Both the position numbers and the translations under genes were made by a program. 57,064 nt of DNA from Candidatus Eisenbacteria bacterium. Lineage in GTDB: Bacteria > Eisenbacteria > RBG-16-71-46 > SZUA-252. The notes below the pieces were generated by a model. It saw only the letters and a list, made by a program, of their open reading frames with translations, did not search any database and had not been told where the DNA came from. Positions 3,348 to 38,137 of the stretch are shown in pieces. The stretch is taken from the NCBI GenBank assembly GCA_005893275.1, contig VBOW01000031.1:1-57064 (forward strand), given 5' to 3'. Each line of letters opens with the position of its first letter. Position 1 is the first letter of the stretch.

Positions 3348-4344
3348 GGGCGTGGGACAGCTTGGGCAGGGTGACGTCCATGCGGTATGGGATATTCATG
3401 TGGCCGTCCTCGAACTCCTCGTACTCATGGGGGACCCCCAGCGCTTCAAGCCGCTTCACGAAACACCGCGCGCCCAACTCGAGAAAGTATTCGTCCTCGC
3501 GGCCGCAGTCGAGAAAGAGAAGCCGGAGTTTCTTCAGGCTCTCGGCGTGCCGGTCGACCAAATAGAGAGGATCCCATTCGAGCCAGCGCTTCCACACGTC
3601 CTCGTGGATCGCGCCGGTCTCGAGATCGAAGGGGAGGTCGCAGTAGGCCGGCGGGACGGCCACGTTCGGCGAGTAGGCGGCGCTCATCGCGACGATATTG
3701 AGCGCCGCGATGTCTTCATGGCGCTTCCGAGGCGATCTGCGGAGGTTGCTCAGCCAGGCGGCAAGGCCGCCCCCCTTGCGGATGGTGCGCAGCGCGGGAG
3801 CGAAATCGCGCTTGTAGCAGTGTTCGAAATAGATGTCGCCGCTGTGGCAGACGACCGCGCCGAAGACATCCGGGTGGCGCATGCCGAGCCTGAGCGCGCC
3901 GTAGCCGCCGCTGGACTTGCCGATCACGCCGCGATGCTCCGGGGCGGAGAGTGTCCGGTACCGGGAATCGACGAACGGCACCAGCTCTTGGATGACGTGG
4001 TTCTCGTACTCGCCAAGCGCGGGAGAATTGACGTACTGGCTCCCGCCCAGGTGGGTGAAACAATCCGGGAGCGCCAGAATCATGGGGTTCGTCCGGCCGT
4101 CCGCGATGAGGGAGTCCATGCGGTCTCCGATACCGGGCATCCAGGGGCTGTCATTCAGGAGCATCCGCCCGCGTCCGGTAAAACCGCTCAAACACCACGC
4201 GACGGGGTAGCGCTCGCCCCCGTGTTCGTACCCGGGCGGGAGGTATAGGTAAAGATCGCGGGCGTCGGGATCACCCGGAAGATTCCCTCGCAGGACCGAG
4301 CTTTCCACCCGCTCGCTTCGAATCCTGCCGCGCGGGATTTCCAT
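3337..4344 (-). CDS. Alpha/beta-hydrolase esterase (esterase D / enterochelin-esterase type)
   Basis: A 335-residue putative serine esterase. Near the N-terminus it reads LYLYLPPGYE, typical of the esterase D family. The nucleophile lies in GKSSGGYGAL (a GxSxG elbow) around residue 145, the acid is probably the Asp of DCGREDEY, and the histidine is in DGHMN near the end. No signal peptide is evident, so it should be cytoplasmic. It is the first gene of a three-gene operon with a CMD-like and a DapF-like protein. The start codon lies only 6 bases below a -10 element and has no Shine-Dalgarno sequence, so its mRNA may be leaderless. Its real substrate cannot be read from the sequence; a lactone or ester linked to the next two gene products is one possibility. 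Confidence 0.8.
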   Translation of the reverse strand: MEIPRGRIRSERVESSVLRGNLPGDPDARDLYLYLPPGYEHGGERYPVAWCLSGFTGRGRMLLNDSPWMPGIGDRMDSLIADGRTNPMILALPDCFTHLGGSQYVNSPALGEYENHVIQELVPFVDSRYRTLSAPEHRGVIGKSSGGYGALRLGMRHPDVFGAVVCHSGDIYFEHCYKRDFAPALRTIRKGGGLAAWLSNLRRSPRKRHEDIAALNIVAMSAAYSPNVAVPPAYCDLPFDLETGAIHEDVWKRWLEWDPLYLVDRHAESLKKLRLLFLDCGREDEYFLELGARCFVKRLEALGVPHEYEEFEDGHMNIPYRMDVTLPKLSHALGR

Positions 4345-4350
4345 GCCGGG

Positions 4351-4379
4351 AGCCTATGGGCGCGAAGCACGTGTGTCAA
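4351..4379 (-). promoter_or_regulatory. Sigma70-type promoter of the esterase operon, leaderless
   Basis: On the minus strand a perfect -35 box TTGACA (4374-4379) is followed after 17 bases by TAGGCT (4351-4356). The expected start of transcription falls at or within a base or two of the ATG at 4344. Confidence 0.65.
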
Positions 4380-4478
4380 TTCGAGGCCGTGCTGTTAGAG
4401 TAGCCGGATCGACATGACGATCGCGACCGGAACGCATCTCGGGCCGTACGACCCCCGGCTGAAGAGCTTCCGGGTCTC

Positions 4479-5642
4479 ATGACGGGTCCCTTCTTCACGA
4501 CCGCAGGGATCGTGGTAGCGGCACTCTACTGGCTCGAGGCGGGCGTGAGCGCCGTCCTCGGCAATCGCTGCACCCCCGGTCTCGGAAGCGTCGAGCCTCT
4601 CCCCGACGAGCGGCTCCCTTCCCTGAGCATCATCGCCACCGCGAAAGATGAAGCGGAGGGGGTCGAACAGGCCGCACGCTCGCTCCTCGCCCAGGACTAT
4701 CCCCACGTCCGGACGATCATCGCGGACGACCGCTCCACGGACGCGACCGGCCGAATCCTCGACCGCCTTGCCGCGGAGGAGCCCCGGCTTCACGTGCTCC
4801 ATGTCGGGTCCCTTCCCGAGGGGTGGATCGGAAAATGCCACGCGCTCGCCCTGGGCGCCGAAGCGTCCGACTCCGACTGGATCCTTTTCACCGATGCCGA
4901 CGTCACCCTGGCGCCCGAAGCGGCCCGCCGCGCGGTCTCCCTCGCGGTCCGCGGCGGATGGGACCACGTCGCGGTCGGGCCGGACATGCGCATCGAAGGC
5001 CTGGGCGAGGCCGTATTCATCGCGGCGTTCGTCGTCATTTTCAACGCATCCCTGAGGCCGTGGCTCGCGTCGGATCCGCGTCGGAGGAACGCAATCGGGA
5101 TCGGCGCCTTCAATCTGGTGCATCGGGACGCGTATCGCCGGGCGGGAGGCCATGCCAAGATTCGCTACGAGCTGCTGGACGATATCGCTCTGGGCAAGAT
5201 GTTGAAGGAGAGCGGAGCGCGGCAGGTCTTCGCGAGGCACGATGGACTGGTAGCCGTGCGCTGGCACGAGGGGGTTTCCGGGCTCGTGCGCGGGGTCGAG
5301 AAGAATGCGTTCCCGGCGGCGCGCTACAACGTTCTCCTAGGGCTCGTCGCCCCCTGGGTCCAGCTCGCGCTGGGATGGGCGCCCCTCATCGGACTCTTCT
5401 TGCCGGGCCCCTCGCCCAAGATCGCCGCGCTCGCCGCCTGGGCCGGAGTCTTTCTCTGCTATCGCGAAGCGGGGCGAAACGTGAACATCCGGATCTGGCA
5501 GGCGATCCTCATGCCCGTCGGGGTGACGCTTTTTCTTTACTCCTTCGTCCGCTCGATGATGGTGACGCTGAAGCAAGGAGGCGTGCTCTGGAGGGGGACC
5601 TTCTATTCACTCCCGGAGCTCCGGCGGAGGATGATTCGGTGA
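4479..5642 (+). CDS. Family 2 glycosyltransferase, membrane-associated (HpnB/CrtQ-like)
   Basis: A 387-residue glycosyltransferase with one N-terminal membrane segment (residues 4-25), a GT2 catalytic domain and about three C-terminal membrane helices (from roughly residue 283). The GT-A motifs are visible: IIATAKDEAEGV at the start of the domain, ADDRSTD, the metal-binding FTDADVTL and a LLDDIALGK acid segment. The segment GWIGKCHAL is characteristic of hopene-associated or carotenoid-type GT2 enzymes, where the substrate is a lipid. The usual QxxRW appears only as VRWHEG. The protein probably adds a sugar to a lipid acceptor at the inner membrane. The gene stands alone on the plus strand between two minus-strand units. 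Confidence 0.8.
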   Translation: MTGPFFTTAGIVVAALYWLEAGVSAVLGNRCTPGLGSVEPLPDERLPSLSIIATAKDEAEGVEQAARSLLAQDYPHVRTIIADDRSTDATGRILDRLAAEEPRLHVLHVGSLPEGWIGKCHALALGAEASDSDWILFTDADVTLAPEAARRAVSLAVRGGWDHVAVGPDMRIEGLGEAVFIAAFVVIFNASLRPWLASDPRRRNAIGIGAFNLVHRDAYRRAGGHAKIRYELLDDIALGKMLKESGARQVFARHDGLVAVRWHEGVSGLVRGVEKNAFPAARYNVLLGLVAPWVQLALGWAPLIGLFLPGPSPKIAALAAWAGVFLCYREAGRNVNIRIWQAILMPVGVTLFLYSFVRSMMVTLKQGGVLWRGTFYSLPELRRRMIR

Positions 5643-7605: not shown

Positions 7606-8292
7606 TTGATTCGAGCCATCATTTTCGACCTCGACAATACCCTCACCGACTTCATGAAGATGAAGCGCGCGGCGATCGACGCGGCCGTGGACGGCATGAT
7701 CGACGCTGGCCTCAAGCTCTCGCGCGAGGAAACCTCCGAGAAGATCTACCGCGTCTATGATCGCGAGGGCATCGAGTACCAGCAGGTGTTCGATCTCTTT
7801 CTCAAGGAGGAATTCGGCGGCATCGATTACAAGCTCCTGACGAGCGCGATCGTGGCCTACAGGCGCGCGCGCGATTCCTACCTCGTGCTCTATCCGCACG
7901 TGAACCTGACGCTGATGGAAATCTTGAAGAGGGGGCTCAAGCTCGCGGTGGTATCCGACGCGCCCCGGCTCCAGGCCTGGATGCGCCTCGCGCAGCTCCA
8001 GCTTCAGCACCTCTTCGACCCGGTCGTCGCGTTTGAGGACACGGGCGAGCGAAAGCCCAGCCCGAAGCCTTTTGAGCGGGCCCTTGAGCTTCTCGGCGTC
8101 ACGCCCGCCGAAGCGATCATGGTGGGGGACTGGCCGGAACGGGACGTGGTCGGCGCCGCCAAGCTCGGGATCCGGACCGCCTTCGCGCGCTACGGAGATA
8201 CGTTCGGCACCGAGCATTCGGGAGCCGATTACGATCTGAGCGACGTATACGAGCTGGTGGAGATCGTGGATCGACTGAACGGCACGGATTAG
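7606..8292 (+). CDS. HAD-superfamily hydrolase, subfamily IA
   Basis: A 228-residue phosphatase-type HAD protein. Motif I is IIFDLDNTLTDF (nucleophile and acid Asp), motif II is VVSDAPRL (Ser in the VxSDA context), motif III uses the lysine of GERKPSPKPF, and motif IV is MVGDWPERDV. A helical cap sits between motifs I and II. This matches phosphoglycolate-phosphatase or haloalkanoic-dehalogenase-like enzymes acting on small phosphomonoesters; the substrate is not defined. Translation is taken from TTG at 7606, with CAGGAG about 11 bases upstream, because motif I begins 4 residues in. It heads a tight four-gene unit with acpS, the NAD(P)HX repair gene and a class II aldolase. Confidence 0.85.
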   Translation: MIRAIIFDLDNTLTDFMKMKRAAIDAAVDGMIDAGLKLSREETSEKIYRVYDREGIEYQQVFDLFLKEEFGGIDYKLLTSAIVAYRRARDSYLVLYPHVNLTLMEILKRGLKLAVVSDAPRLQAWMRLAQLQLQHLFDPVVAFEDTGERKPSPKPFERALELLGVTPAEAIMVGDWPERDVVGAAKLGIRTAFARYGDTFGTEHSGADYDLSDVYELVEIVDRLNGTD

Positions 8293-11015: not shown

Positions 11016-12197
11016 TCAGGCGCCGATCGCGTGCCTGATCCGGGCGATCTGCCCCAGGTGCTCTTCGCTGTGGGAATGAAAATCGAGCGCGGTGAAGGCC
11101 ACGCGCCCCCAGCGCGGCTTGAACGAAACGACATCCGCGGGAATGTGCGCGATCAACGCGATCGTCTCCACCTCATCCCTGCGGATGCGCTTCAATAGCT
11201 CGCGAACGGCGGGACGCCCTTCCAGCACGCCGGCGATGCGCGCCGGATTCGTACACGCGTCGCGGTCGATTCCAGGTCGTTCGCCCCGCGCCGCCTCGTC
11301 CAGCCACGATTGGAGCATTCGCTCGGTAATCGAGAGGTGGGCGAGGAGCTGGGCCACCGACCAGGCTCCTGGCCGTTCCGGGCGGTAGGCGTCCTCGTCC
11401 GATAAACCGTTCACCGCCTGTTCGAGCTTCTCGTCGGCTTCCAGGACGGCATCCCGCAGGGCTCCCAGGAGGCGAGCGGGGAGCGGCGGCGGCTGTCCTC
11501 GCCCGCTTCGCGATCCCACGGTCACCGAGACCGAAACCTGCGCTCCGTTCCGGACCGCGTCGCAGCGGACGACGTCGCCCGGTCTCAAGCGCTGAATTCG
11601 CCTCACGAGATCCTGCCCGTTTCGAACCGTCTCGCCGTCGAGGGAGATCACGATGTCGCCCGGTTTCAATCCCGCATTCTCGGCGGGTTCCCCCGGCAGA
11701 ACGGAGCCCAAGCAGACACCAATCCCGGCGGGAACGCCGCTTATCGGACGCTCGGCCGGCGCGATATCGCGCGGGCCGATCCCCATGACCGCGCTCCCCG
11801 CCTCGCGGAGGTCCACCCCACGCTCCCAGACGGAGCGGAGGTTCTCGAGCGCGTCGCGCCAGGGCTCCTCGTTCTCGGAGTCCGGATCCGCCACGCGAAC
11901 CCGGGTCTCGGCTCCAGATAGCTTGACGAAGTCGACCTCGATTCGGGCGTCGTCCCCGCGGCGCGTGGGCCGGAGGACGATCCGGCGCCCCTCGACGAGG
12001 CGCTCCACGGTCGTATCCAGGCGTATCCCAAACGTGCTGCGGACGATGTACGCCCCCCCGACCCTCAGATCGATCTCCACGGCGTCCCCGAACCAATAAT
12101 GCAGATGCTCGGGTTTCGTGACGGCGTGCCACATCTCGATTGGGGGATGGCCGACGATCGTCTCGGCGCAGCGGGCGGATTGCAGGGGCGGAGACAT
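11016..12197 (-). CDS. SRPBCC (AHSA1-like) - PDZ - DinB three-domain fusion protein
   Basis: A 393-residue protein with three recognisable parts. Residues about 10-145 look like an AHSA1/SRPBCC hydrophobic-pocket domain (PPIEMWHAVTKPEHLHYWF, then ALENLRSVWERG). Residues about 150-235 form a PDZ-type module, with GVCLGSVLPGEPAENAGL then GDIVISLDGETVRNGQDL. Residues about 245-393 are a DinB/YfiT four-helix bundle, with WSVAQLLAHLSITERML and FHSHSEEHLGQIARIR supplying the His ligands of a metal site. No signal peptide is seen, which is odd for a PDZ protein. ATG 12197 is used; a TTG at 12239 would add 14 residues. Neither has a clear ribosome site. Function unknown. Confidence 0.7.
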   Translation of the reverse strand: MSPPLQSARCAETIVGHPPIEMWHAVTKPEHLHYWFGDAVEIDLRVGGAYIVRSTFGIRLDTTVERLVEGRRIVLRPTRRGDDARIEVDFVKLSGAETRVRVADPDSENEEPWRDALENLRSVWERGVDLREAGSAVMGIGPRDIAPAERPISGVPAGIGVCLGSVLPGEPAENAGLKPGDIVISLDGETVRNGQDLVRRIQRLRPGDVVRCDAVRNGAQVSVSVTVGSRSGRGQPPPLPARLLGALRDAVLEADEKLEQAVNGLSDEDAYRPERPGAWSVAQLLAHLSITERMLQSWLDEAARGERPGIDRDACTNPARIAGVLEGRPAVRELLKRIRRDEVETIALIAHIPADVVSFKPRWGRVAFTALDFHSHSEEHLGQIARIRHAIGA

Positions 12198-12278: not shown

Positions 12279-12701
12279 TCACTCACCGATGATCTTGATC
12301 AACACCCGTTTGGAACGGCGGCCGTCGAACTCGCCGTAGAAGATCCGCTCCCAGGGACCGAAGTCGAGCTTGCCCGCCGTGATCGCGACGACGACTTCGC
12401 GTCCCATGATTTGACGTTTGTGATGCGCGTCCGCATTGTCTTCACCCGTGCGATTGTGCCTGTAGCGCTTCGGGCTCGGATCGTATGGAGCAAGCTCCTC
12501 GAGCCAACGCTTGTAATCCTCGTGGAGTCCCGGTTCGTCGTCGTTGATGAACACGCTCGCGGTGATGTGCATCGCGTTCACGAGACAGAGACCTTCCCGC
12601 ACCCCGCTTTCGCGAACCGCTTCCTCGACTTCGCGAGTGATGTTCACGAAGTCCATCCGGGTGGGAACGTGAAACGAGAGCGTCTTCCGGAGATGCCTCA
12701 T
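12279..12701 (-). CDS. YjbQ/UPF0047 family protein
   Basis: A 140-residue YjbQ-family protein, the family's normal length. It shows the conserved core: [18 protein letters not shown], then [34 protein letters not shown] and FDGRR. In most homologues the first segment reads HTTA, so MHITAS is a slight variant. Members have weak thiamine-phosphate-synthase activity, but their true role is not settled. The ATG at 12701 was chosen because homology begins there and a perfect TATAAT lies 7 bases upstream, with no Shine-Dalgarno; a longer frame from 12812 would run through the promoter and a CG repeat. Confidence 0.9.
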
Positions 12702-12708
12702 CCCGATG

Positions 12709-12714
12709 ATTATA
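12709..12714 (-). promoter_or_regulatory. -10 box TATAAT directly before yjbQ-like gene (leaderless)
   Basis: A perfect TATAAT on the minus strand ends 7 bases before the ATG at 12701. No -35 match is present at 16-18 bases; that position is occupied by an alternating CG run (about 12719-12732). Confidence 0.5.
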
Positions 12715-12814
12715 GGGCCACGCGCGCGCGCGCGATGCGAACGATGTTGACGCGCCGTGCCCGTGCGGCTATTGTTCCGCCTTGCCGCACCCCGCGAACA
12801 CACCGCTTTCACCG

Positions 12815-37669: not shown

Positions 37670-38137
37670 TCACCGCACGAATCCCTGCCGTACGGCGTGG
37701 ATGAAGTCGGTGTAGGCGGGCGTGAGCCCTGCCGCGCGCATGTCGGTCGCGATTTGCCCGCGGTGGTACGCCGAATGCAAGAGGACGTGACTCAGGACGT
37801 CACCGATCGAGTTCGTCCACGTCTCCCCCTTCGAATTCGTGTACGAGGCGATCTGGGCGAGCGCCCCGGGGCGCATCCGGCCGAGATACTCCTGCCACAA
37901 GGGGGGCAGCTTCCCCGCCTGCGCCTCACATTCGCCTACTGTCCACGCGGGCCACACTTCGGATTCCTGCCTCCATTGCTTCAATCGCCCTAGCCAAAGC
38001 CACTCCGCCGAGATGAGGTGGGCCAGGTACTTGAGCGAGCGCGGCGGCGGCGTTCCGGAACGGAGCGCCGCGAGGGTTTCCTGGTTCGCCCACGCGTCGT
38101 AGGCGAACTGACGATGAAGGTGGAGCAGGAGGTCCAT
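37670..38137 (-). CDS. DinB/YfiT family four-helix protein
   Basis: A 155-residue DinB-superfamily protein, a four-helix bundle that usually binds a metal through three histidines. Visible pieces are a first helix FAYDAWANQETLAAL, a LAHLISAEWLWLGR segment with one His ligand, and the conserved VLLHSAYHRGQIATDMR helix with the HxxxHRGQ pair. Some relatives use bacillithiol or mycothiol as cofactor, but the partner here is unknown. It has a homologous domain in the SRPBCC-PDZ-DinB fusion at 11016-12197. It is separated by about 100 bases from the glycosidase gene, with no linked function. Confidence 0.88.
   Translation of the reverse strand: MDLLLHLHRQFAYDAWANQETLAALRSGTPPPRSLKYLAHLISAEWLWLGRLKQWRQESEVWPAWTVGECEAQAGKLPPLWQEYLGRMRPGALAQIASYTNSKGETWTNSIGDVLSHVLLHSAYHRGQIATDMRAAGLTPAYTDFIHAVRQGFVR

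Follow-up and report, generated by a model that had tools for sequence, protein, structure and literature searches.

A single gene from a Candidatus Eisenbacteria genome encodes a protein in which an AHSA1-type SRPBCC domain, an HtrA-type PDZ domain and a C-terminal DinB domain are joined on one chain. The gene lies in the stretch of DNA that was analysed as a whole, a contig of 57,064 nucleotides (the window). The analyses confirmed that the fusion is real and goes beyond chance, since the protein (P0001) is 82% and 69% identical to two complete orthologues and the whole-gene dN/dS of 0.23-0.24 in all three pairs indicates purifying selection. We propose, with a probability of about one half, that the protein is a soluble multi-domain enzyme of the STL (DinB/YfiT) superfamily in which the DinB domain would activate bacillithiol, the SRPBCC domain would offer a cup for the co-substrate and the PDZ domain would dock C-terminal peptides. 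The features of the gene are as follows.

11016..12197, minus strand: whole fusion gene, an open reading frame of 393 amino acids plus stop, with ATG at 12197
11820..12170, minus strand: SRPBCC/AHSA1-type domain, about residues 10-126 (Pfam AHSA1, secondary structure of the model, structure matches)
11508..11798, minus strand: HtrA-type PDZ domain, about residues 134-230 (PDZ_2, Do/HtrA profile, AlgW match)
11778..11789, minus strand: presumed PDZ carboxylate-binding loop V-M-G-I, residues 137-140 (A3 alignment, invariance, motif as given in the available part of PMC4877387)
11481..11507, minus strand: Pro-rich linker, about residues 231-239, of low model confidence (pLDDT below 50 at 232-237)
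11025..11480, minus strand: DinB_2/STL four-helix domain, about residues 240-391 (Pfam DinB_2 and MST, model helices, 5cog and YfiT)
11337..11339, minus strand: codon of H287, first presumed metal ligand (His in the three complete copies and at this column in all 16 DinB rows of A3)
11070..11072, minus strand: codon of H376, presumed metal ligand of the HxxxH motif (conserved in the complete copies and the DinB rows of A3)
11058..11060, minus strand: codon of H380, presumed metal ligand of the HxxxH motif (conserved in the complete copies and the DinB rows of A3)

Domain composition of the fusion protein

The three domains scored above their Pfam gathering thresholds. AHSA1 (1e-10; 42.3 bits against a cut-off of 22.1) matched residues 18-110 over profile positions 3-98 of 125, PDZ_2 (2e-12) matched residues 137-227 over positions 2-80 of 80 and DinB_2 (1.6e-10; 42.0 bits against 24.8) matched residues 255-384 over positions 6-128 of 128. 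The MST profile also covered residues 247-391 with 33.6 bits against a cut-off of 27, and no further catalytic domain was recognised by Pfam. All three domains exceeded their cut-offs in the complete orthologues P0002 and P0003, both of which carry a Met at the place matching the start codon, as did the first two in P0004, whose gene is cut by a contig end. Simple Kyte-Doolittle hydropathy revealed no signal-peptide or membrane-type hydrophobic stretch: the highest 19-residue mean was 1.32, within the PDZ region, and windows in the first 40 residues did not exceed 0.22. The sequence-only reading had named the same three domains and described the chain as lacking a signal peptide, and these results support both points.

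An AlphaFold2 model built from a composite alignment of domain relatives (A3) reached a mean pLDDT of 86.3 and matched solved structures of all three folds. A3 held 33 rows, P0001-P0004 and 29 segments (10 AHSA1, 16 DinB and 3 PDZ) out of 52 tried and 56 translated. A script kept only rows whose alignment fell on the domain that the profile matches had indicated, which makes the model dependent on these matches, and with a pTM of 0.63 the arrangement of the domains in it is not trusted. The four orthologues alone (A1) gave a fold with a mean pLDDT of 33.9. Another composite alignment (A2, 55 rows) was dropped, as a near-identical set showed that most of its AHSA1 and DinB rows were misplaced.

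Because the AHSA1 match ends at profile position 98 of 125, the completeness of the SRPBCC domain was checked in the model. The full helix-grip order was present, with a strand followed by two helices, six strands and, at 111-126, a long C-terminal helix. Residues 6-132 resembled DynU16 (Z 15.7, 123 residues, rmsd 2.5); the matches of this part to DynU16 and to Aha1-type structures lie at Z 14-16. The N-terminal domain carries both the helix-grip fold and the AHSA1 profile of the AHSA1 branch.

The sequence-only reading had called the middle stretch PDZ-like, and a PDZ fold is supported: PDZ_2 spans nearly its whole profile and residues 131-233 of the model matched decapeptide-bound AlgW (Z 16.9, rmsd 1.6 over 100 residues) as well as DegS-peptide complexes. 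The Do/HtrA family of NCBIfam (TIGR02037) matched residues 135-231 at 1e-15 with 57.6 bits, far under the whole-family cut-off of 416.2 because the match is confined to the PDZ stretch. A trypsin-like protease domain was absent from the Pfam matches, and the protein does not qualify as an HtrA protease. In A3 the fusion's V-M-G-I, invariant in 4 of 4 rows at the GLGF-type loop position, aligned with the Y-L-G-V of an Eisenbacteria PDZ row (rows L093, L098), and the Arg/Lys of the motif given in the available part of PMC11642142 is absent there. Residues 137-145, around the presumed carboxylate loop, were invariant among the four copies at 8 of 9 columns, compared with 22 of 60 in residues 168-227, and were the best conserved among the stretches counted within the PDZ domain. 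Across the four sequences, which are few, this pattern would fit retained peptide binding with changing specificity. The C-terminus of the fusion itself reads -AIGA, with five of the last six residues invariant in the three complete copies; as a guess, this end is the first candidate for a PDZ ligand.

In the DinB domain, H287, H376 and H380 were intact in all three complete copies, and His stands at these columns in all 16 DinB rows of A3. Both marks of the STL superfamily, the DinB profile and three conserved metal-site histidines, are present in the fusion. The long model helices of the region run over residues 240-262, 281-303, 331-350 and 362-391. Residues 238-393 matched 5cog (Z 14.8, 152 residues, rmsd 3.4) and the range 162-393 matched YfiT, 1rxq (Z 14.8, 159 residues, rmsd 4.0). 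Helical models may reach a best Z near 14 even when no clear relative exists, so the assignment to DinB depends chiefly on the profile match and the three histidines. H374 was present in the three complete copies; the 16 remaining DinB rows of A3 have Ala at this column, so the metal site of the fusion may differ.

Distribution, conservation and gene neighbourhood

The full protein was found in 4 of 146 genomes, and a profile of the four copies detected the fusion in 4 of 385 genomes, members of the phylum included. The carriers were all four genomes labelled as own or same genus in the searched sets. Three copies are complete; the fourth, in G002, sits on a contig of 8031 bases that ends after the PDZ domain (match to base 8030). 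A fifth match of the four-copy profile (G070) covered residues 137-238 only, in a frame of 511 residues, and is a PDZ match. At the thresholds used (E limits of 1e-17 for the four-copy profile and 1e-7 for each of the SRPBCC and DinB parts), none of the remaining genomes in the set of 385 gave a multi-domain match. Among the rows listed, 4 candidates per genome were scored with the four-copy profile, up to 10 with the SRPBCC part and up to 9 with the DinB part; with these numbers and E limits, distant independent fusions could be missed.

When the parts were searched separately, the SRPBCC and DinB parts recovered only the four and the three complete copies, respectively, in the 385 genomes (E up to 1e-7 for both). 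Among 47 genomes of the phylum, the DinB part matched the three complete copies and one DinB protein (190-residue frame, 30% identity; E up to 1e-6), and the SRPBCC part matched the four copies and a tandem AHSA1 protein of G005 (L050, 34% identity), the nearest relative of this domain seen outside the genus. Matches to the PDZ part turned up in all 39 genomes searched with it, as would suit a common module. A peptide-pattern scan of genome contigs, which reaches close relatives only, gave no broader origin: 53 pattern matches yielded two relatives, both from Eisenbacteria and both loci of two of the four carriers. Among plasmids, 55 records matched, none at 80% coverage, and the ten matches listed covered 17-26% of the query, around the PDZ domain. 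In the literature searched, which covered few subscription journals, no combination of DinB with SRPBCC/AHSA1 or with PDZ was found, and no paper on bacillithiol in Eisenbacteria came up there either. Since the sample holds only a small fraction of known bacteria and the scoring was limited, the fusion is to be called rare here, not unique. The combination had been described from the letters alone as unusual, which agrees with its restriction to a single genus, both in the 385 genomes and in the 47 from the phylum. Altogether, the fusion looks like a genus-level innovation from common parts: each domain is already known, and the SRPBCC-PDZ-DinB order, confined to a single genus within the sets searched, appears to be new.

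Conservation differed among the domains. Between P0001 and P0003, identity was 80% in SRPBCC, 68% in DinB and 58% in PDZ. The SRPBCC domain was the most conserved, with a dN/dS of 0.12-0.17. The PDZ domain had the lowest identity in the three pairs and a dN/dS of 0.28-0.36, the highest in two of them (DinB was higher in the third); retained peptide binding is therefore not assured.

The two further loci with good coverage share the gene order around the fusion: HAD, AcpS, YjeF/Nnr, class II aldolase, fusion, YjbQ, GNAT, GlnA, a thioredoxin-like gene and CcdA. The yjbQ gene (YjbQ family, UPF0047; 12279-12812, minus strand) lies 81 bases upstream of the fusion on the same strand. A link between the two was considered and not kept: yjbQ adjoins the fusion in three genomes and is missing beside it in G002, where a short stretch (L012, 2215 bases) contains GlnA and the fusion only, with no YjbQ or GNAT between them. 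At the relative locus L009, GlnA (about 3728-4925) matched as two pieces that overlap in the DNA, with query residues 249-281 unmatched, a pattern that a frameshift or an assembly error would give. The neighbouring genes offered no hint of a substrate.

Bacillithiol genes and the proposed function

The host lineage has bacillithiol synthesis genes. The two that were tested, BshB1 and BshC, each scored above the curated cut-off in all nine family genomes and in 3 of 14 control genomes. DinB_2 matches are also numerous, with 123 in the nine family genomes (G000-G008), 2 to 21 per genome, and 13 in the 2.9 Mb source genome, fusion included. One of these 13 is the free-standing DinB gene that the sequence-only reading had placed 26 kb away. 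It is a real gene (37670-38137, minus strand, 155 amino acids, above the DinB and DinB_2 cut-offs) about 25.5 kb from the fusion; a link between the two was dropped, as nothing singled this gene out among the 13.

Of 31 free AHSA1 loci in the family, 6 had a DinB gene no more than 1 kb away (the other 25 did not), where about 0.34 would be expected under uniform placement with rounded genome sizes and contig ends ignored. The corresponding Poisson p, 1.6e-6 at 1 kb, is too favourable given these simplifications and the lack of independence between orthologous pairs; the DinB genes of G000:C84 (L075) and G001:C7 (L071) look like orthologues. The 44 AHSA1 matches became 40 and then 31 loci once the 4 on fusion contigs had been left out and those lying within 600 bases of each other had been combined; 3 of the 123 DinB_2 matches, which were below the cut-off, and the 3 fused DinB matches were also omitted. 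The pairs lie at G000:C84, G001:C133, G001:C7, G007:C232, G008:C33 and G008:C286, five of the six on the same strand. This gene neighbourhood may reflect a functional partnership of AHSA1 and DinB proteins in this Eisenbacteria family. Tandem AHSA1 pairs in one frame were also seen, at G000:C42 (L026), G001:C116 (L033), G004:C62 (L027), G005:C62 (L040/L050) and G006:C14 (L019).

STL membership does not fix the reaction, and for the Bacillus subtilis set the natural substrates are largely unknown, according to the available part of PMC5815605. According to the same text, EDTA abolished more than 99% of the activity in each of the eight B. subtilis bacillithiol transferases, and multi-domain STL enzymes most likely owe their specificity for the non-thiol substrate to the extra domain. 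A bacillithiol-dependent transferase is favoured on the basis of these two points together with the intact triad, BshB1 and BshC, the many DinB_2 genes and the AHSA1-DinB adjacency. The fusion is thus probably a bacillithiol S-transferase, as judged from sequence and model. In the proposed mechanism, a divalent metal held by H287, H376 and H380 would activate bacillithiol in the DinB domain, while a hydrophobic, electrophilic co-substrate would be bound or handed over by the SRPBCC cup. The PDZ domain may bind a partner protein by its C-terminal peptide, or else the fusion's own -AIGA end, and the bound C-terminus could place or switch the enzyme. The likely task would be the conjugation of small molecules with bacillithiol, in detoxification or tailoring. 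The suggestion made from the letters alone, that the protein couples a small-molecule reaction to the recruitment of a partner, remains plausible.

Alternatively, the protein might be a ligand-responsive scaffold and no enzyme, its SRPBCC and DinB domains sensing small molecules or metal and its PDZ domain signalling to a partner. The SRPBCC domain being the most conserved, the kept presumed carboxylate loop and the lack of a further recognised catalytic domain would suit such a role, but the intact metal triad and the host's bacillithiol synthesis genes fit catalysis better, and we regard the scaffold as unlikely. Somewhat less probable still is a metal-dependent isomerase or hydrolase of the mycothiol-maleylpyruvate-isomerase or YfiT kind, with the SRPBCC domain shaping its choice of substrate and with a product other than a bacillithiol conjugate. 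MDMPI_N matched the fusion weakly (22.6 bits against a cut-off of 24.2; 24.4 bits in P0003) and a near named fold, YfiT, is titled a probable metal-dependent hydrolase; however, DinB_2 and MST scored higher, and YfiT was later identified as the bacillithiol transferase BstA (available part of PMC5815605). Improbable to a like degree is a lineage-specific fusion whose PDZ domain is a largely neutral linker that binds no peptide, with the other domains acting as free proteins do: its restriction to a single genus within the sets searched, the occasional adjacency of AHSA1 and DinB genes and the low identity of the PDZ domain would agree with this, but the dN/dS of that domain still shows constraint, its modelled fold is intact and the residues around its presumed carboxylate loop are nearly invariant.

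Within the transferase reading, a more specific idea, to which we give little credence, is a peptide-gated thiol transferase, in which PDZ-docked tails (of a client or its own -AIGA end, in cis or in trans) would switch or aim the bacillithiol transfer by the DinB domain onto the SRPBCC ligand or onto the docked protein. No such enzyme was found described in the literature searched, with its few subscription journals.

An STL member fused to a ligand cup and a peptide-docking domain would provide a direct handle on both substrate and partner. If the PDZ domain works, it would be an HtrA-type PDZ reused without the protease. If the enzyme proves ordinary, it still adds one more architecture to a large and poorly understood superfamily.

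Comparison with known systems

The closest known enzymes are the bacillithiol S-transferases BstA-H of B. subtilis (STL, formerly DinB/YfiT). Like the fusion, they have a DinB domain with three conserved histidines, and the host of the fusion likewise has bacillithiol synthesis genes (BshB1, BshC). In contrast, BstA-H are single-domain proteins according to the available part of PMC5815605, while in the fusion SRPBCC and PDZ precede the DinB domain. EgtB and LmbV combine DinB with another domain believed to determine the substrate, as the fusion may do; in these proteins DinB comes first, whereas in the fusion it comes last, and the account of them in the available part of PMC5815605 names no SRPBCC or PDZ, both of which the fusion has. 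The PDZ domains of the HtrA family (AlgW, DegS, DegQ, DegP) are the closest solved structures and sequence profiles to the fusion PDZ, but the fusion differs from that family in having neither the trypsin-like protease domain nor an evident signal peptide. Finally, the AHSA1-type SRPBCC proteins (bacterial Aha1-domain proteins, DynU16) share the helix-grip fold with the fusion; they are free-standing or tandem, whereas here the domain is joined to PDZ and DinB.
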